From: Synechococcus sp. ROS8604
GTDB taxonomy: Bacteria; Cyanobacteriota; Cyanobacteriia; PCC-6307; Cyanobiaceae
DNA length: 64,000 nucleotides
Assembly (NCBI RefSeq): GCF_014279655.1
Contig: NZ_CP047946.1
Coordinates: 2,480,001-2,544,000, forward strand
Reading direction: 5' to 3'
A model generated the notes under the pieces. It had not been told where the DNA came from and made no database searches. It was given only the letters and a program-made list of their open reading frames with translations. The position numbers were made by a program, and so were the translations under genes. Positions 1 through 11,969 of the stretch are shown here, in pieces (the stretch's first letter is position 1; every line of letters begins with the position of its first letter).

Positions 1-807
1 ACCAATTCCGGAATCCATGGTGATGCTGGAGCCACACAAACTCGCGGCAATGTAAATCACCTGATCAACATTCAAAGTCCAGCTCTGGCATCTATTTTTA
101 AAGAAGAGTTTGCTCAGATGTGGGGAGATGGCCCTGGCGGCTCGAAAAATAGTCGCTTTGGACGCAATAAAACTTCCCAGCCTCTGCGGACCGTCAAGGT
201 GGGCTCCATGAACATCAAAGTGCTGTTTCCACCCCATGCAAAAACACATCCAGGACATGGCCTTGATCTGATTGCGGGTCAACTAGGCAGCGCCAAACAA
301 ACGATTGACCTTGCCTTATTCGTGTTCTCCGCGCAGCAGCTCACCAACAAACTTGCCGACAGGGTCTCCGCTGGCGTGAAGCTGCGGCTGCTTGCTGACC
401 CTGGATTTGCCAGCCGGTCCTTTTCAGAAGTGCTTGATCTTCTCGGAGTGGCCCTGCCCGATCGCTTCTGCAAATTAGAGGCAGGCAATCAACCCTTAAC
501 CAAACCACTCCAAGGCGTCGGCACCCCTGGCCTTGCCCGTGGCGACAAACTCCACCACAAGTTCGCGGTGATCGATAACAAAACCGTGATCACCGGCAGC
601 TTCAACTGGTCTCCATCTGCTGCCCATACCAATGACGAAACCTTGATAGTCATTCATTCACCCCTGCTCGCCAAACACTTCACGCGCGAGATGGATCGGA
701 TGTGGAGAGGTGCAGAACTTGGGATCACCGCTCGGATGCAGCGCAAGCTCGATCGACAAACAAGAAAATGCGGGAGCGGAATGGCTACGGGAGTGGCTTC
801 TGGGTAA
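1..807 (+). CDS. Phospholipase D-like (HKD) protein, 5' end outside window
   Basis: The frame is open from base 1, so the N-terminus is missing; 268 residues are visible. The first residues (SGIHGD, then RGNVNHL and MWGDGPGG) fit the stretch just after the first HKD motif of bacterial two-domain PLD proteins. The second HKD motif, HHKFAVIDNKTVITGSFNW, starts at base 553 with H, K and D in the expected HxKxxxxD spacing. The family cleaves phosphodiester bonds in lipids or nucleic acid; the substrate here is unknown. The last nine codons (MATGVASG and stop) lie beyond the 45-bp repeat at 736-780 and are probably supplied by the inserted island, so the native C-terminus may be the one at 9973-10017. 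Confidence 0.85.
   Translation, partial: TNSGIHGDAGATQTRGNVNHLINIQSPALASIFKEEFAQMWGDGPGGSKNSRFGRNKTSQPLRTVKVGSMNIKVLFPPHAKTHPGHGLDLIAGQLGSAKQTIDLALFVFSAQQLTNKLADRVSAGVKLRLLADPGFASRSFSEVLDLLGVALPDRFCKLEAGNQPLTKPLQGVGTPGLARGDKLHHKFAVIDNKTVITGSFNWSPSAAHTNDETLIVIHSPLLAKHFTREMDRMWRGAELGITARMQRKLDRQTRKCGSGMATGVASG
736..780 (+). repeat. Left 45-bp direct repeat, putative attL core
   Basis: These 45 bases are identical to 9928-9972. Upstream of the core the two copies are about 80% identical (differences mostly at third codon positions). Downstream they have nothing in common. Together with the tyrosine recombinase at 8501-9562 and the AT-rich DNA between the copies, this fits the left attachment site of an integrated element. 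The core encodes RMQRKLDRQTRKCGSG in the PLD frame. Confidence 0.75.
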
Positions 808-2758: not shown

Positions 2759-3910
2759 ATGCTGAATAAAGCTCTAACACTTGTCCTTGCTGCCTGTTAT
2801 TTATTTTCCCAAGAGGTCCATGCAAAAGAGGTATTATCTGATGATAACTTTGTGCAAAGCAATGCAAAGCTAGCAAGCGGCTTTCTAAGAAATAGTTTTG
2901 GCAACAAGGAAAAGCAAATCAAGAAAGATTGCCAATCGAAAAGTTGCGATATCATCAGCAAAAGGCTAACAATTCATATTGCATCGAACTTGGAATTGAA
3001 GGATACAATGTCTGAGCCAATGACTGAGAACGACCATACAATATTCAATAACGCTATAAAGCTGCTAAATAAAGGTAATCTCAAGGAAGTGCTCAGAATA
3101 GCCAATGAAGAAGGGAATGCATACACGAGAAGCAAACTTTACATGGCTTTGGTAATGAGGTCCTTCAAACAAAAAAAACTGGAAACAATCCTTCAACATT
3201 ATAGAAAAGATATTAGAGAGTAAAAACAAAAAAAAGGTCACCAACCAACTAAGGATTGAGGGGAATACTATTGCTACTATCAATTCACTTTGGGCAAAAG
3301 TGTACGCAATGCGCGTCGGAATAAACCTCAAATTAGGTAATAATATAGCATCTATGAATGACATCAATAAAGCAATCCGACTTGACCCAAATGACCATTG
3401 GTTCTATAATTTGCGAGGGGGTATACATATGGAATCAGGAAATTACAAAGAAGCGCTGAATGACATCAATAAAGCAATCCGACTTGACCCAAATGACTAT
3501 ACGTCCTATCATATCAGGCGAGGGATTATACATATAGACTCAGGAAATTACAAAGAAGCGCTGAATGATTTAAATGAAGCCATTCGCATCAACCCAAGCT
3601 TTTCCGCTAGATACGAAACACACCCTTTTTTTTAAACTACAAACTTGGCAATTACAAAGCGGAACTAAAAGACCTCAATAGATATATCCAGCTGAAACCA
3701 AATAACGGACTATCATATTCGAAAAGAGCAGAAATCAGAAAACAATTCAAAGACTTTAATGGAGCATGTGCAGACATTGAGATTGCTCAAAATCTTGGGG
3801 TCCAGATTAATACCAGAGAATTCAGCTCAAGATGGAAATTTCTACCGAGCAACCTTACCGGCAATAGTGGAGATGATTGGGCATGGTGCAAAAATATTAA
3901 CCGCAACTAA
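2759..3910 (+). pseudogene. Secreted TPR-repeat protein, split by two frameshifts
   Basis: The frame starting at 2759 has a clear signal peptide (LTLVLAACYLFSQEVHA). It would stop at 3223, but protein-like sequence continues in the +1 frame after the A8 run at 3171-3178. That frame carries TPR units (GNYKEALNDINKAIRLDP) up to a stop straight after the T8 run at 3626-3633. Downstream, the original frame resumes with another TPR unit (GNYKAELKDLNRYI) to the stop at 3908-3910. The 34-35-residue repeat units and shared composition show it was one gene of about 380 residues. Both breaks lie at 8-base homopolymers, so sequencing error, real decay or slippage switching are all possible. TPRs mediate protein-protein contacts; partner unknown. 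Confidence 0.75.
3355..3497 (+). repeat. Near-identical TPR-coding DNA repeats
   Basis: A 41-bp stretch at 3355-3395 recurs exactly at 3457-3497, an offset of 102 bp or 34 codons. A second exact repeat of 29 bp occurs at 3435-3463 and 3540-3568, offset by 105 bp. The identity is at DNA level, not only protein level. This indicates recent unit duplication within the TPR gene. Confidence 0.8.
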
Positions 3911-6858: not shown

Positions 6859-7017
6859 TCATCTATTGGTTTGGCGAGATGCATTGGCAATCAGACGTTT
6901 GATCAATTTGGATTTGCTCATTCCTGTTCTATCTTGTAAATCTTGTACTAAAGGCATCAACGAACAATATTCCTTGTAATTCAAGTAAACCTGTATAGAG
7001 AACCGTCTCTGCTTCAT
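6859..7017 (-). CDS. 52-residue ribbon-helix-helix-like DNA-binding protein
   Basis: ATG at 7017, preceded on the minus strand by AAGG about eight bases upstream. The product begins MKQRRFSIQVYLNY, a short basic beta strand. One helix follows, then RTGMSKSKLIKRLI, which fits the second helix of the MetJ/Arc/CopG fold. Such proteins are usually dimeric repressors, often of their own promoter or of a plasmid or phage function. It is a candidate regulator of the island, reading away from a strong promoter at 7213-7241 and upstream of the two overlapping small genes. The family call is by eye from the short pattern only. Confidence 0.6.
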   Translation of the reverse strand: MKQRRFSIQVYLNYKEYCSLMPLVQDLQDRTGMSKSKLIKRLIANASRQTNR

Positions 7018-7212: not shown

Positions 7213-7241
7213 ATCCTAGTCGATTTTAGAGTATTTGTCAA
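7213..7241 (-). promoter_or_regulatory. Sigma70-type promoter, minus strand
   Basis: Minus strand TTGACA (7236-7241), exactly 17 bases, then TAGGAT (7213-7218). It points to the ribbon-helix-helix gene at 7017. The -35 box lies in the 14-mer AAGGGGTTGACAAA, shared with the promoter at 7961-7989. Confidence 0.5.
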
Positions 7242-7307
7242 CCCCTTAGGTGATATGCATAGAGATAATCTGTCAAACCTTTCCAAGGTTATTTATACAT
7301 CTTGAGG

Positions 7308-7362: not shown

Positions 7363-7944
7363 ATGAACATAGAACACAGGTATCTAAATAAAATTTCGGC
7401 GCACCTATACAACTTCAGAGATAAAGGCACCACCTACCAACTGCGCTGCCCTTACTGCCAATCAACAGGTAGAACCAAAAAAGGAAAATGCATCACCGAT
7501 GCCACAGCAAAGGGTTACTTCTACAGCAAGAACGGTTGCCTCAACTTCAAATGCCATAAATGCGGCACCGGTAGACAATTTCACAATTTCCTAAAAGATC
7601 ATTTTCCCAATGTCTATCTTGATTACGTCAAAGAAAGAGAACTTCATGGCACAACAGGTAAAGGGACCAACTGTCCAACATTTGCAAATGCTCTTGAAAG
7701 CATTGGAGGTTTGCAGTTTGAGAAACCAATTTTCAATAAAAACGAAAACGATGACAGCATTAGCACTACTGCAAGAGAGTCATCAGATTCTTCTAAAGAA
7801 GAAGGATGCGGCAAACCACCCAAAGTTCAGAAACTGCAACCCATGCGCTCACCTCAGCAGCAATCAGGACACCAGGGACCCATCAACCATCTGATCAAGC
7901 AGAAGCATGAGCGTGCTCGTAGACGCAGAGGTGATCTTTGGTGA
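7363..7944 (+). CDS. Phage-type zinc-ribbon protein
   Basis: 193 residues from ATG 7363; the GTG at 7327 would lie upstream of the predicted transcription start. The N-terminal half has CPYCQSTGR, GYFYSKNGCLNFKCHKCGTG and FHNFLKDHFPNVYLDYV. This two-CxxC arrangement resembles small zinc-ribbon proteins of T4-like cyanophages, as I remember them, and zinc-binding domains of replication proteins. The C-terminal half is low-complexity and basic, ending HERARRRRGDLW, which suits nucleic-acid binding. The role in the element is unknown; replication or transcription control are guesses. The stop is followed at once by a perfect 8-bp hairpin (7945-7964). Confidence 0.65.
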   Translation: MNIEHRYLNKISAHLYNFRDKGTTYQLRCPYCQSTGRTKKGKCITDATAKGYFYSKNGCLNFKCHKCGTGRQFHNFLKDHFPNVYLDYVKERELHGTTGKGTNCPTFANALESIGGLQFEKPIFNKNENDDSISTTARESSDSSKEEGCGKPPKVQKLQPMRSPQQQSGHQGPINHLIKQKHERARRRRGDLW

Positions 7945-7964
7945 TCAACCCCAGAAGGGGTTGA
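7945..7964 (+). terminator. Perfect 8-bp hairpin, also overlapping the next -35 box
   Basis: TCAACCCC-AGAA-GGGGTTGA directly after the stop codon of the zinc-ribbon gene. There is no T-run, so intrinsic termination would be weak. Its right arm contains the first bases of the TTGACA box at 7961-7966, so hairpin and promoter overlap. Confidence 0.45.
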
Positions 7965-7989
7965 CAAACTAGTAGTACAGGTGTACTGT
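7961..7989 (+). promoter_or_regulatory. Promoter with TTGACA-N17-TACTGT
   Basis: Perfect -35 box at 7961-7966, 17-base spacer, -10-like TACTGT at 7984-7989. The spacer and -10 box contain the LexA-type palindrome at 7974-7987. Predicted transcription start is near 7996, so the gene should begin at ATG 8042, not at the GTG at 7994. A perfect stem GCCGAC-AAG-GTCGGC (7996-8010) would lie at the very 5' end of the transcript. Confidence 0.6.
7974..7987. promoter_or_regulatory. LexA (SOS) box
   Basis: AGTACAGGTGTACT is a perfect palindrome in its outer five bases and fits the cyanobacterial LexA consensus RGTACNNNDGTWCB at every position. It lies between and over the -35 and -10 boxes of the promoter at 7961-7989, the classic position for repression. 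Confidence 0.65.
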
Positions 7990-8041
7990 ACGTGTGCCGA
8001 CAAGGTCGGCGGCAAATCACATAATCAAACGCATAAAAAAC

Positions 8042-8500
8042 ATGAGTGACACTTATTGCATTTTTGAGTCAGAAGTACCCCTTGCTCGCACCATAAGCAA
8101 GCAAAAATTAGACCAACATCTTCTAGCAGCACCGCACCAGGAGATCCTGACAGAGATCGCAGAAAACTTTCAAGGTGGAATAAACAACCCCAATACAGGA
8201 TATATTTTTTGCGCTAAAGAGCAACTTTTCTTTGACTCAAAGGAAATCCTGGAAAAAGCGGACGACGACCTTGATTGCTTCTACGAAGACATGTTGGATT
8301 TCACTGTAGACGAAAACAAAGTCATTTGGAACGTATGGATAGAAAATACAGAATGCACTATTCCGAAATATACTTCCTGGTTGATCAACAAAGAATTTGG
8401 TGCCAATGCCAATGTTTTAGTTGAAGAGCGTTATATGTCACTATACGATTGTTCTAAGAACTACTGCTCAGTGAAACCCTCTACAAAGATTATTTGGTAG
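8042..8500 (+). CDS. Acidic protein of unknown function, LexA-box promoter
   Basis: 152 residues from ATG 8042. No signal peptide or membrane segment; strongly acidic patches (EKADDDLDCFYEDMLDF) and seven cysteines. I do not recognise it. Its promoter overlaps a LexA box, so it is probably induced by DNA damage. Its stop codon (8498-8500) touches the stop of the convergent integrase gene (8501-8503) with no bases between, so read-through would make RNA antisense to int. Candidates by context are a recombination-directionality factor, an anti-repressor or a toxin, but nothing in the sequence decides. Confidence 0.65.
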   Translation: MSDTYCIFESEVPLARTISKQKLDQHLLAAPHQEILTEIAENFQGGINNPNTGYIFCAKEQLFFDSKEILEKADDDLDCFYEDMLDFTVDENKVIWNVWIENTECTIPKYTSWLINKEFGANANVLVEERYMSLYDCSKNYCSVKPSTKIIW

Positions 8501-9562
8501 TCACCAATTCGGAAGTAGCACTCTCCCGGTTGGTTTGGCATAAGTATTCAGTAATTGTTCAGTCCTATGTCCTGCTACTGCCGCCAAATCTGCAGGTGAA
8601 TTCCCTAATGCAAGGGCATGGGATAGAAATGTATGTCTTTGTGAATACAAGCGCCTTATAGGCAGTCCTAGACGTCTTAGAGAACGTTTCCATACGTGCT
8701 CTAGTCCAGAGTCATACAAATGCCGATGCGTTCTTGGTGTAATGAATACCAATCCACTCTTAGTATTCATTGCCAGTTCTTGCATTCTTAAACGATGCTG
8801 CCTCAGCATCTCAACCACCTGAGGATTGATCGGCACGACCCTGCTCTTACCTGTCTTGGTACTGCCCCAAATTCTTCTATGGGTTGCAGTGCCATCTCTC
8901 TTTAGTGTCTTACTAATCAAAACCTCACCCTCATCCAATCGAACGGCATCCCAAGTCAATCCAATCAGTTCTGAGTTCCTGAGACCTGTACTCATCCAAA
9001 AGAAAAAACAGGGATAGAACCATTCCTCATTTGACTTCAGATCCTCCAACACCTGTTGGATTTCCTTTTTACTGAGCACTTCTTGATGAACACAACGATG
9101 AGGCACCTTCACATGGACTTTATGTAGTGCCTTGTTCTTGGGTTGGACACTACGGATGGTGCTCAAAATCGTGGACTGTGTTGATGCTGCAAGTCCTCTC
9201 TGCTCCATCCACTCAATAAAAAAATCGACATCCTGCTTGCTCTTAATCGAACAACCAAACCTCAGGACCGTTCGATAGGTATGGGTCACCCTTGCCTGAT
9301 TCTTTTTTTCCATTAATTGCCTCAACGCCTCTAATAAATCAAGATCCTTTCCATCCACTAGCGGTCGGTAGCGATTCAACGTCGGATCAAGTCCACCTTG
9401 ATGAGCATCGCTCCAGATCTCTGCTGAAATAGATAGTGCCCTTGCCCTGGCAACAGGGTCATCGAACCTACCCAGACGATTAATGAAATGATCCTTCCCG
9501 TCCAGACGGACTCTCACTTGCAAGGCACCATTGTTATTCCTCAGGGTTGGTGCTTTCCTCAA
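8501..9562 (-). CDS. int: Tyrosine recombinase / integrase
   Basis: 353 residues. Catalytic residues of the family are visible: Arg in STGLRNSELIGL, Lys in STKTGKSRVVP, the RHTF box (YSQRHTFLSHA, with Tyr where many have His), His in AGHRTEQLL and the nucleophile Tyr in LLNTYAK. The N-terminal part (GALQVRVRLDGKDHFINRL) looks like an arm-type DNA-binding domain. The start is a TTG at 9562: an in-frame TGA lies a few codons upstream and no ATG is near. It sits about 365 bp from the right 45-bp repeat, the usual place for an integrase acting on that site. Known role of the family: site-specific integration and excision. Confidence 0.9.
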   Translation of the reverse strand: MRKAPTLRNNNGALQVRVRLDGKDHFINRLGRFDDPVARARALSISAEIWSDAHQGGLDPTLNRYRPLVDGKDLDLLEALRQLMEKKNQARVTHTYRTVLRFGCSIKSKQDVDFFIEWMEQRGLAASTQSTILSTIRSVQPKNKALHKVHVKVPHRCVHQEVLSKKEIQQVLEDLKSNEEWFYPCFFFWMSTGLRNSELIGLTWDAVRLDEGEVLISKTLKRDGTATHRRIWGSTKTGKSRVVPINPQVVEMLRQHRLRMQELAMNTKSGLVFITPRTHRHLYDSGLEHVWKRSLRRLGLPIRRLYSQRHTFLSHALALGNSPADLAAVAGHRTEQLLNTYAKPTGRVLLPNW

Positions 9563-9723: not shown

Positions 9724-10017
9724 GAGGCACATCTCAAGGATGTCCATCACAAGTTCGCCGTGATCGACAACAAAACAGTGATCACAGGATCCTTCAACTG
9801 GTCACCCTCTGCCGCCCACATCAACGACGAAACCCTGCTGGTCATTGAGTCACCACAACTTGCAGCACATTTCACCCGTGAGATGGATCGAATGTGGCGA
9901 GGAGCTGAACTGGGGATCACAGCTCGAATGCAGCGCAAGCTCGATCGACAAACAAGAAAATGCGGGAGCGGAGTCCAGCGCAAGGAGACAAGCACCAGCA
10001 CTGGTGCAAAAGGATAA
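9724..10017 (+). pseudogene. C-terminal fragment of a phospholipase D-like gene
   Basis: Open only from 9724, after an in-frame stop at 9721. Homology to the left PLD gene begins at the second HKD motif (HHKFAVIDNKTVITGSFNW) and is about 80% at DNA level up to 9927, mostly synonymous changes. It is then identical for 45 bp and ends differently (VQRKETSTSTGAKG). A GTG at 9760 could start translation but would remove the catalytic His and Lys. It is a remnant: the part after 9972 is probably the displaced native 3' end of the gene at 1-807. Confidence 0.75.
9928..9972 (+). repeat. Right 45-bp direct repeat, putative attR core
   Basis: Exact copy of 736-780. It marks the right boundary of the AT-rich segment, close to the integrase gene; host-like base composition resumes after it. 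Confidence 0.75.
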
Positions 10018-10037
10018 AACTTGTTTGGCTTTGACGC

Positions 10038-11474
10038 TTAGTCCAGAGCACCTTGCATGACATCACCAACGCTGAACTGCACATTCTTGCGGAACCCAGC
10101 AACATCTAATCGGTGCATTAGCAAAGCCGCCGCGAGGAAGCCGATCATCTGCAAGCCAAAGACACCGCCATAGGCGGCGAACATATCGCCACCATTCCAT
10201 GTTTTAAACAGCGTAAGAAGCCCACCACCACTGATCGTGGCAATTCCCCGGGAGTAGGCATACAACGCCCCCCAGATCCCGAGCAATAAGCCCACCCTTC
10301 CTGGCTCCACAAAGCTAAACATCAACGTGAAGCTTGCATGAATGCAGATTCCAAGCGACACACCAAAAAGGGTTAATGAAAAATACAAACTTTCAAACGA
10401 CTGCCATGGCGCCGACAGCAACATCAGAGCGAGGGAAATCGAAGCAAAAACCGCCCCAAACTGGGCCGTACGAATGTTGCCAATCCTGTGGACTAACTGA
10501 AAACCACTGAGGCCAAGTCCAACAAAAAAGCCCACTGCCAAGAAGGCATTCAGTGCCGTTGTGGCACAGATACTCATGTCAAAGACCGCGGCGCCATAGG
10601 GCTCAAGCACCGCGTCATTGAGAAACATGCTGAAGGTGAAAAGGCACAAAGCACCCGTAAATCGTCCGAACTGAGGAATCGATCGCAAACGACCAAGCAA
10701 TTCAAGCAACGTCAGGGATTCACGCCCGTCCCTGGAGTTGTCTGCCACATCCTGATCGACCACATCTAGAGATTCGGTTTCCTGATTTGGCAGATCAAGT
10801 CGCTCCAAACCAAAGACTGACAACACACCAAGACCAAACAGCAGCAGGGGAGTCACCACAATCAGCTGTTCGAGTCCAGCGATGACGGCAGCTTGACCGG
10901 CCTCCCAACCACAAGCAGCACCAAAGATCCGATTCACAAGAGCGGTTCCTAACAGAACCCCAAGCAGCCGCATGCCCCAAACCACAGACAACACACGGGG
11001 ACGCTCGCGGTCCGTCGTGAGATCAACGATCAGAGCAGAGAAGGCCGTTCCCCCCGCCGCAACGGCTGTACCGATGGCGATGGAAATCAAGGTCAGAAGT
11101 CCCATCCAGGCAGCAAAGAAAGGCTGCTCTGCTGAGGGCATGGTTCTGGCGAGTTGCAGCACCACCCATCCCGCGCCTCCAAACAGCAACGACAAGGCAA
11201 GCGAACTCAACACGATGAAAGGGGTTCGCCGCAATCGCCCCGGAGGGATTCGATCCGAACGATCACCGAACCAAGCCCGGCTGAACCCCATCAGTTGCTG
11301 GGCCCCGAAGGCCAGAGCCGTCAATGCAGCAGAGACGCCAATCTCAGTAATCAGGAGACGATTCAGGAGCCCAAGAATGAGAACCCCGAGGATGCCAAGG
11401 CTGAGCTGAAACAAGCCCAGACGCAGACCTAGACGCACGACACGCACAACTGACAAGGGCTTGAGCCAATCCAT
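10038..11474 (-). CDS. PucC-family (LhaA-type) MFS transporter
   Basis: 478 residues from MDWLKPLSVVRVVRLGL; an upstream start at 11504 is less likely. About twelve hydrophobic segments, with GFSRAWFGDRSDR and RRTPFIVLSS matching the PucC branch of the major facilitator superfamily. The family is linked to assembly or pigment loading of light-harvesting complexes in phototrophs; in cyanobacteria it is often paired with HLIP or chlorophyll-binding genes. It is the first intact gene right of the island, transcribed towards it, and starts about 85 bp (or 55 bp) from a divergent secreted-protein gene. Confidence 0.85.
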   Translation of the reverse strand: MDWLKPLSVVRVVRLGLRLGLFQLSLGILGVLILGLLNRLLITEIGVSAALTALAFGAQQLMGFSRAWFGDRSDRIPPGRLRRTPFIVLSSLALSLLFGGAGWVVLQLARTMPSAEQPFFAAWMGLLTLISIAIGTAVAAGGTAFSALIVDLTTDRERPRVLSVVWGMRLLGVLLGTALVNRIFGAACGWEAGQAAVIAGLEQLIVVTPLLLFGLGVLSVFGLERLDLPNQETESLDVVDQDVADNSRDGRESLTLLELLGRLRSIPQFGRFTGALCLFTFSMFLNDAVLEPYGAAVFDMSICATTALNAFLAVGFFVGLGLSGFQLVHRIGNIRTAQFGAVFASISLALMLLSAPWQSFESLYFSLTLFGVSLGICIHASFTLMFSFVEPGRVGLLLGIWGALYAYSRGIATISGGGLLTLFKTWNGGDMFAAYGGVFGLQMIGFLAAALLMHRLDVAGFRKNVQFSVGDVMQGALD

Positions 11475-11558
11475 CCATTCACCGAGATGGTACGCACAGC
11501 GCAAAGGACGGCTTGGCAGCGTGCGTCCATGCGCTTGTTCTGGCGCCAGAATGCTCCT

Positions 11559-11969
11559 ATGACTTCCCTTATGCCCGCGCGACTCTCGCCACTCCTTGTT
11601 GGCTTAGCGATCCTGGCGCCTAGTGCGGTTCGCGCACAATTGAAATACGTAGCGTTTCCGACCAAGGATGAATTGAGGTCCCTGCAGCTACTGGCTTACG
11701 CCTGCTCACGGGAAAACACGGTGGACACCTGCACGCGCACGCGTGAAATCGCCAATCCACTGATGGACCATCCACGCCTTCCAGCAGCCTGTAAAGACAC
11801 GGTGTGGGAGCTGATGCAAGAAGCCAAGCCAGCCACAACCAACAGCTCTCAACGCCGCGACAGCATTGACAGCCCCGCACGCCGGCTCACCGTGGTCTGC
11901 GCTGATCCTGAAAAACCCAACAAACCAAGCAATCCATCTTCAGGAGGATCTCCAGCCAATCAAACCTGA
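11559..11969 (+). CDS. Small secreted protein, unknown function
   Basis: 136 residues from ATG 11559, or 146 from ATG 11529. A signal peptide (LSPLLVGLAILAPSAVRAQ) is followed by a domain with paired cysteines (LLAYACSRENTVDTCTR, AACKDTVW). The tail is rich in Ser, Pro and Asn. No family is recognised; the composition is host-like. Divergent from the PucC-like gene. Confidence 0.6.
   Translation: MTSLMPARLSPLLVGLAILAPSAVRAQLKYVAFPTKDELRSLQLLAYACSRENTVDTCTRTREIANPLMDHPRLPAACKDTVWELMQEAKPATTNSSQRRDSIDSPARRLTVVCADPEKPNKPSNPSSGGSPANQT

Follow-up and report, generated by a model that had tools for sequence, protein, structure and literature searches.

Some genes of mobile elements such as prophages, ICEs and integrons are controlled by the LexA protein of their host. 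For cyanobacteria a LexA regulon has been described, with a 14-bp palindrome of the consensus AGTACWNWTGTACT as the LexA box (Li et al. 2010, PMC3091678). The main text of this paper gives GGTACAAATGTATT for lexA of marine Synechococcus CC9605 and CC9902 and of Prochlorococcus MED4, and AGTACAGATGTACT for recA of four Prochlorococcus strains; the words "integrase", "phage" and "dprA" do not occur in this main text, the full regulon tables being placed in the supplements. According to a report on WH7803, dprA is a suggested member of the LexA regulon and is strongly induced by UV (PMC7393227). In two marine Synechococcus strains, mitomycin C was reported to induce recA, lexA and umuC as well as 15 of the 27 genes with a predicted LexA box in CC9311 and 10 of the 46 in WH8102 (PMC3744912). 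In the same report island genes were over-represented among those genes that mitomycin C raised more than 2-fold (44/93 in WH8102, 26/211 in CC9311); the section on this over-representation gives no regulatory cause.

Here we analysed a window of 64 kb, by which we mean the whole stretch of DNA from position 2480001 to 2544000 of a single-contig genome of 2.88 Mb. At 7974-7987 of the window the same 14-bp palindrome as in the published regulon (PMC3091678) is found in the form AGTACAGGTGTACT, one spacer base away from AGTACAGATGTACT. The difference from the regulon as described there lies in the target, which here would be a gene of a mobile element.

An integrative element at the 3' end of a PLD-like gene

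A PLD-like gene has, by sequence comparison, an integrative element of about 9.2 kb at its 3' end. The limits of the element and the genes discussed below are as follows (window positions, strand in brackets).

551 to 780 (+): left repeat, formed by the 3' end of the PLD-like gene, whose ORF was read as 118 to 807; from a repeat search
6859 to 7017 (-): probable ribbon-helix-helix (RHH) regulator, 52 aa; RHH_1 E 0.027, below the Pfam cut-off
7366 to 7944 (+): 192-aa zinc-ribbon protein, N-terminal gp61 relative; phrog_451 4e-16, phrog_47 (DNA primase) 3e-12
8042 to 8500 (+): ORF of 152 aa with the LexA-type box upstream, pI 4.4, no known family, homologue in the related genome G231
8501 to 9562 (-): tyrosine recombinase (integrase), 353 aa; PF00589 3e-18, phrog_1 2.8e-41
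9743 to 9972 (+): right repeat, where the PLD-gene 3' end occurs a second time, with 84% identity to the left copy

The two 230-bp repeats lie 9192 bp apart and have an identical block of 45 bp (736-780 = 9928-9972). In the relative G101, window positions 1-780 and 9745-11969 meet in one repeat copy; judged from this alignment, G101 is an empty site from which the element is absent. The first 185 bases of the right repeat are 99% identical to G101. With an integrase, flanking repeats and an empty site in a relative, the features expected of an integrative element are present, the exact crossover being approximate. The clues to its position conflict, since the 45-bp block suggests one core, whereas judging from the sequence left of the block the right copy would be the native one. 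In G231, unlike in the window, the gene's own PLD copy is the native-like one. In this genome (L053:6590-13503) the PLD 3' end is present three times, apparently from two elements stacked at the same site. The G+C content inside the element is mostly 0.35-0.46, compared with 0.51-0.60 to the right of it. The target of the element is the PLD-like gene, and the only two tRNAs of the window lie at 47 kb.

When 16 ORFs of the element were compared with Pfam, no family was found above cut-off besides the integrase and a TPR protein (3300-3635, 111 aa; TPR_2 9e-21). Within 2759-3635 there is also an ORF of 154 aa with an apparent signal sequence, as judged by eye, and 80-nt direct repeats occupy 3311-3597. 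The 192-aa protein matches the N-terminal part of the T4-like cyanophage DNA primase gp61, the remainder being missing. It found 507 phage records at E <= 1e-3, the best-ranked of which was S-H25 (39% over 85% of the query); the S-H25 frame comprises 335 residues from the start of the match, of which roughly 150 at the N-terminal end are covered by the element protein; the primase gene as deposited for S-H25 has a start that lies further inside this frame. With its integrase, its primase zinc-ribbon relative and few other recognisable genes the element looks like a phage-satellite-like island.

Compared with G231, dS is 0.31 for the integrase, and 0.06 and 0.10 for two genes of the host that lie right of the element. 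For the zinc-ribbon gene the dS of the 3' part is 0.24 and the pS of the 5' part 0.77, so that a conserved block, consisting of the 3' part of this gene and the promoter, lies between the saturated 5' part and the gene of the 152-aa protein. In this alignment the element looks like a mosaic made by recombination.

A LexA-type palindrome over the spacer and -10 of a promoter

7213 to 7245 (-): promoter-like site before the RHH ORF, TTGACA-N17-TAGGAT (10/12), from the promoter scan; GGGGTTGACAAA at 7245-7234
7957 to 7968 (+): 12-mer GGGGTTGACAAA spanning the -35, common to the RHH-operon promoter, from an exact pattern search
7961 to 7989 (+): promoter TTGACA-N17-TACTGT, read directly
7974 to 7987 (either strand): candidate LexA operator, from exact pattern, matrix score, G231 identity and genus-wide recurrence

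In the initial annotation a TTGACA-N17-TACTGT promoter had been proposed, carrying a perfect LexA consensus across spacer and -10. Direct reading of the + strand confirmed this arrangement: TTGACA (7961-7966) and TACTGT (7984-7989) are separated by 17 nt, and the box is a perfect AGTAC-N4-GTACT palindrome covering part of the spacer and the -10. The promoter is absent from the list of a consensus promoter scan of the window because its -10 is poor and agrees with TATAAT at 3 of 6 positions only. The statement that the window has no second perfect match also held in both exact pattern searches. RGTACNNNDGTWCB gave a single exact palindrome, matched on both strands (mean of shuffled windows 0.23; 2 of 100 shuffles reached 2), and AGTACN4GTACT was found at 7974-7987 only. 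With a LexA matrix made from 48 sites of Li et al. (2010), which has a maximum of 21.5, the box scored 19.8 and the runner-up in the window 11.65.

In the promoter of G231 the box is kept at 14/14 and the -35 at 6/6 positions, and the -10 reads TACTAT. Of the flanking intergenic bases (7945-8010 minus the box) 6/52 differ, and at this local rate the chance of 14 unchanged bases is 0.18. Conservation of the box in this single relative is supportive, weak alone and not decisive.

The 12-mer over the -35 lies partly within an inverted repeat, TCAACCCC-AGAA-GGGGTTGA, at 7945-7964. Exact copies of it occur at two places in the window only, the RHH site and the promoter of the 152-aa gene; when up to one mismatch is allowed, 9 of 100 shuffles likewise give two matches. 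For the same pair of sites G231 has one copy exact and the other with one change. The RHH ORF is the first of a leftward group of ORFs, lies left of and divergent from the zinc-ribbon gene, and has a homologue in the same place in G231 (51%). Because the -35 block recurs at the promoter-like site of the RHH ORF, a second, element-encoded control appears plausible, by which the element may regulate this ORF and the 152-aa promoter in common.

LexA of the host and the positions of LexA-type palindromes

The LexA protein of the host (205 aa) matches TIGR00498 of NCBIfam with 175.4 bits, the cut-off being 110.95. The Ala-Gly and Ser/Lys residues expected of a LexA were recognised in it by eye. On the matrix, the sites upstream of lexA (GGTACAAATGTATT) and recA (CGTACATGTGTACT) score 17.5 and 16.4, and the site upstream of umuDC, genes assigned by Pfam, is weak (AGAACGCTTGTACC, 11.0). 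The type of box, the genome size and the cyanophage relatives of the zinc-ribbon gene suggest that the host is a marine picocyanobacterium. The objection foreseen at the outset, that the host might lack LexA or use a different box, therefore does not apply: its LexA is a typical one and related boxes precede lexA and recA. Two S24-family matches were found in the genome, at 953 kb and 1.66 Mb, neither of them inside the element. The S24-family protein other than LexA is an ORF of 151 aa and most likely UmuD, since it lies directly 5' of a umuC-type (IMS) gene.

Exact AGTACN4GTACT palindromes occur at three places in the 2.88-Mb genome, namely before dprA, before the gene of a 76-aa Cys-rich protein and at 7974-7987. 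A looser pattern, VGTACNNNNGTAYT, gave 11 distinct places, including these three as well as lexA and recA. Such looser matches weigh little, because the reversed control pattern gave 8 places on either strand of the same genome. At up to one mismatch 24 places were found in the host genome versus 68 for the reversed control.

We then searched 31 genomes of the genus for the exact palindrome; 27 of them have at least one. The sum of the table totals is 52 palindromes versus 38 for the reversed control pattern. The bulk counts are not clearly enriched, and the evidence comes from the positions. All 52 sites were classed by the gene lying 3' of the site within 250 nt. This classing is descriptive, as the seeds for the gene families were taken from the same loci, and the family names were tested on one member each, the other members being assigned by similarity to it.

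76-aa Cys-rich protein: 21 sites
dprA: 10 sites
DUF3104-type: 6 sites
DUF1651-type: 4 sites
152-aa protein: 2 sites
recA: 1 site
none: 8 sites

Four recurrent gene families thus lie at most 250 nt behind 41 of the 52 palindromes, and recA behind one. The distance from site to matched start is short and varies little, being 8-13 nt at dprA and 10-28 nt at the 76-aa gene. That the same families recur in many genomes is not explained by the seeds sharing loci with the classed sites. Some four fifths of the exact palindromes of the genus therefore seem to be placed like operators, and since 42 of 52 precede dprA, recA or one of three small genes, the box at 7974-7987 is very probably a LexA operator.

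In the host a perfect palindrome (L003:1501-1514) lies directly upstream of the dprA ORF (L003:1527-2630), which would link DNA uptake or repair to SOS; the host DprA matches PF02481 at 3e-55, yet falls just below the NCBIfam dprA cut-off. The 76-aa Cys-rich protein (L004:1259-1486, - strand), which has no Pfam or NCBIfam family, is the commonest target of the exact palindrome, and its gene also stands behind a palindrome in L147, L154, L157, L160, L170, L173 and others. DUF3104-type targets are found in L133, L146, L148, L156, L162 and L175 and DUF1651-type targets in L149, L158, L169 and L177, the Pfam names having been tested on L133 and L177, respectively. Their position suggests that these two types of gene may have a role in the damage response. 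If the operators are real, the set would provide a short and precise list of likely SOS targets in the genus, dprA and three small gene families among them.

The gene behind the promoter

The ATG at 8042 is a more likely start of the 152-aa ORF than the GTG at 7994, because coding similarity with G231 begins at 8042. Its stop included, the ORF reaches to 8500, and the integrase gene, which lies on the opposite strand, has its end at 8501; with stops adjacent on opposite strands, the two genes are convergent and not co-transcribed. The earlier description of an acidic protein that abuts the integrase thus stands as far as the calculated pI (4.43; 4.4-4.5 across both homologues), the lack of a family in Pfam, PHROGs, PADLOC or NCBIfam and the adjoining ends are concerned, with the arrangement being a convergent one.

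A single homologue was found, 56% identical, in G231, a member of the same genus. Counting the window's own genome, the gene is present in 2 of 400 family genomes and 2 of 31 genus genomes, and a profile made from the two sequences found 2 of 299 order genomes. No homologue was found in phages, plasmids or GTDB genome contigs, among which the closest genomes are possibly missing, and the two-sequence profile gave no match in viral contigs. Since synonymous sites between the window and G231 are saturated (pS 0.76) at a dN of 0.29, the ORF is a real protein under purifying selection; from this comparison it is also fast-diverging.

Some matches were discarded. The single 152-aa sequence had a local match of 20 residues in a 548-aa frame (L020:7995-9641), both having the run DDLDCFYEDM. 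This frame, on a cyanophage-like contig, seems on reading to encode a virion protein of a cyanophage that includes a protease domain, and the match was judged to be chance because the G231 homologue does not have that stretch. PDB profile matches at E 0.38-1.1 were regarded as noise. The promoter pattern had one match in viral contigs, L102, whose contig appears to be from a tailed phage and unrelated. A structure prediction from the two sequences reached a pLDDT of 39 and was unusable; with no usable structure and no family, any role given to the protein is a guess.

Relatives of the integrase

Integrase matches at E <= 0.001 were found in 57 of 400 family genomes, the own genome included, many of them being weak or partial. 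From the better matches 19 loci (L053-L071) were fetched. PLD 3' fragments lie beside the integrase in 9 of these, and in 9 of 19 the zinc-ribbon protein was matched (E <= 1e-4), in several cases weakly. The 152-aa gene is absent from the 18 loci other than that of G231 (L054-L071), and none of these, of which L066 comprises 3.9 kb only, has a site above 13.6 on the matrix, compared with 19.8 in the window. The search for the same box before homologues elsewhere was therefore successful in G231, where it is identical, and not in the 18 other integrase loci.

In G177 the integrase and the zinc-ribbon gene converge directly, with 6 nt between them. G134 has two such pairs, one with the integrase in two pieces and one pair being about 130 nt apart. 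None of these pairs is accompanied by a 152-aa gene; the best box scores 11.05 in L063, and none reaches 10 in L061. Because the other integrase relatives examined lack both, gene and box were apparently added in the lineage of the window's genome (G000) and G231.

Stand-alone zinc-ribbon relatives of gp61 convergent with integrases are thus found at 7366-7944 of the window, at L061:9030-9593 and at L063:3041-3598 and 8618-9178. Islands with a zinc-ribbon gene and an integrase occur in more than one picocyanobacterial genus, where the zinc-ribbon protein is possibly a phage decoy or a replication part.

Proposed mechanism and alternatives

We propose that an operator of the host LexA covers the spacer and -10 of a promoter of the element and that this promoter is released by damage and drives the 152-aa gene; our rough probability for this reading is 0.77. 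In undamaged cells host LexA over the -10 would exclude RNA polymerase and thereby block the promoter. Upon DNA damage, RecA-stimulated cleavage of LexA would release the promoter and the acidic protein would be made. The RHH regulator encoded by the element would add a second control at the -35 block, and any transcript not stopping at 8500 would run antisense into the integrase. As a role for the acidic protein we would tentatively put first an accessory function in excision or replication, by which the activity of the element would be tied to damage of the host. The sequence itself shows the box, the promoter hexamers, the gene, the element, a host LexA and the recurrence of the box before dprA, recA and some small genes; LexA binding, damage induction, RHH control and the function of the protein are what we infer from it.

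The idea of a LexA-controlled gene on a mobile element agrees with the host LexA, its boxes and the integrative element, but, judging from the 18 other integrase loci, gene and box do not characterise the family of elements. The broader suggestion that the whole element is SOS-inducible was not borne out: the integrase is on the other strand and absent from the SOS transcript, so that "SOS-inducible element" exceeds the evidence. "Element with an SOS-controlled gene" is the wording that the sequence supports.

A first alternative departs from the proposed explanation solely in the role of the 152-aa protein, which might be an effector acting on host or phage, whether by mimicking DNA through its acidic nature, by modulating the damage response of the host or by countering phages. 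The pI of 4.4-4.5 in both homologues fits such a role. There is also a precedent, as ICEBs1, an ICE, is said to modulate how its host responds to DNA damage. The protein offers no match in PADLOC, NCBIfam or Pfam and no structure that would point to it, and we regard an effector as possible but tentative. It is unlikely that a family of cyanophage-satellite-like elements of marine picocyanobacteria, which took over a stand-alone zinc-ribbon from the primase of T4-like phages infecting them, has in one lineage acquired a promoter with RHH control at the -35 and LexA control at the -10, which makes an acidic protein for escape or against phages. If this were true, it would be a two-signal promoter by which the island answers DNA damage, caused by UV or phage attack, via a new acidic protein.

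Second, the site could be functional with an antisense RNA into the 3' half of the integrase as main output, lowering integrase expression. The adjacent stops at 8500/8501 would allow this, and no terminator-like site on the + strand was found in 8500-9044, the first one being at 9045-9060 within the integrase. However, the 152-aa ORF is conserved as a protein, and in G177 and G134 the zinc-ribbon gene is convergent with the integrase with no such box between them, which makes this reading improbable.

Third, the palindrome could be a chance match with no regulatory role. Eight of the 52 genus palindromes have no recurrent neighbour, and the bulk counts do not clearly exceed the reversed control. 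Yet the box lies exactly over promoter spacer and -10, G231 has retained it next to a gene whose synonymous sites are saturated, and 42 of the 52 palindromes are upstream of the same few genes; we consider chance quite improbable.

Finally, it is very improbable that not host LexA but a different regulator recognising the same half-site, such as a LexA-like repressor encoded by the element, binds the operator: Li et al. suggest, in the main text, other factors for LexA-like boxes where lexA is absent (PMC3091678), and the genome has the second S24-family protein, most likely UmuD, but there is no S24 repressor within the element and host lexA and recA have the same type of box.

Comparison with known systems

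Compared with the SOS-controlled genes of prophages, ICEs and integrons, the target of the proposed operator is neither an integrase nor a known anti-repressor, and the host is apparently a picocyanobacterium. The PICMI satellites of Vibrionaceae, as described in the main text of PMC10803314, are alike in being small islands with an integrase, a primase-type gene and a small regulator. In PICMI iolg touches the integrase and is needed for excision, and the 152-aa gene likewise adjoins the integrase; iolg overlaps int by ATGA (PMC10803314), whereas the 152-aa gene is convergent with int. AlpA, a DUF3987-type primase and Fis, which belong to PICMI, were not found with Pfam among the 16 element ORFs compared; the element has a primase zinc-ribbon relative only. 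Neither LexA nor SOS is mentioned in the main text on PICMI (PMC10803314). Tycheposons of Prochlorococcus are, as described, islands with a tyrosine recombinase in the range of 4-200 kb, into which the size of the element falls; they insert at tRNAs, in contrast to the element, which is located at a protein gene (PMC10872708).

A LexA-controlled gene in a picocyanobacterial, satellite-like island seems to be new, as none was found in the open-licence literature searched, where the nearest finding is the over-representation of island genes among mitomycin-induced genes of WH8102 and CC9311 (PMC3744912). A LexA operator in an integrative element would provide a testable link from DNA damage by sunlight or phages to the activity of an island in an abundant phototroph.
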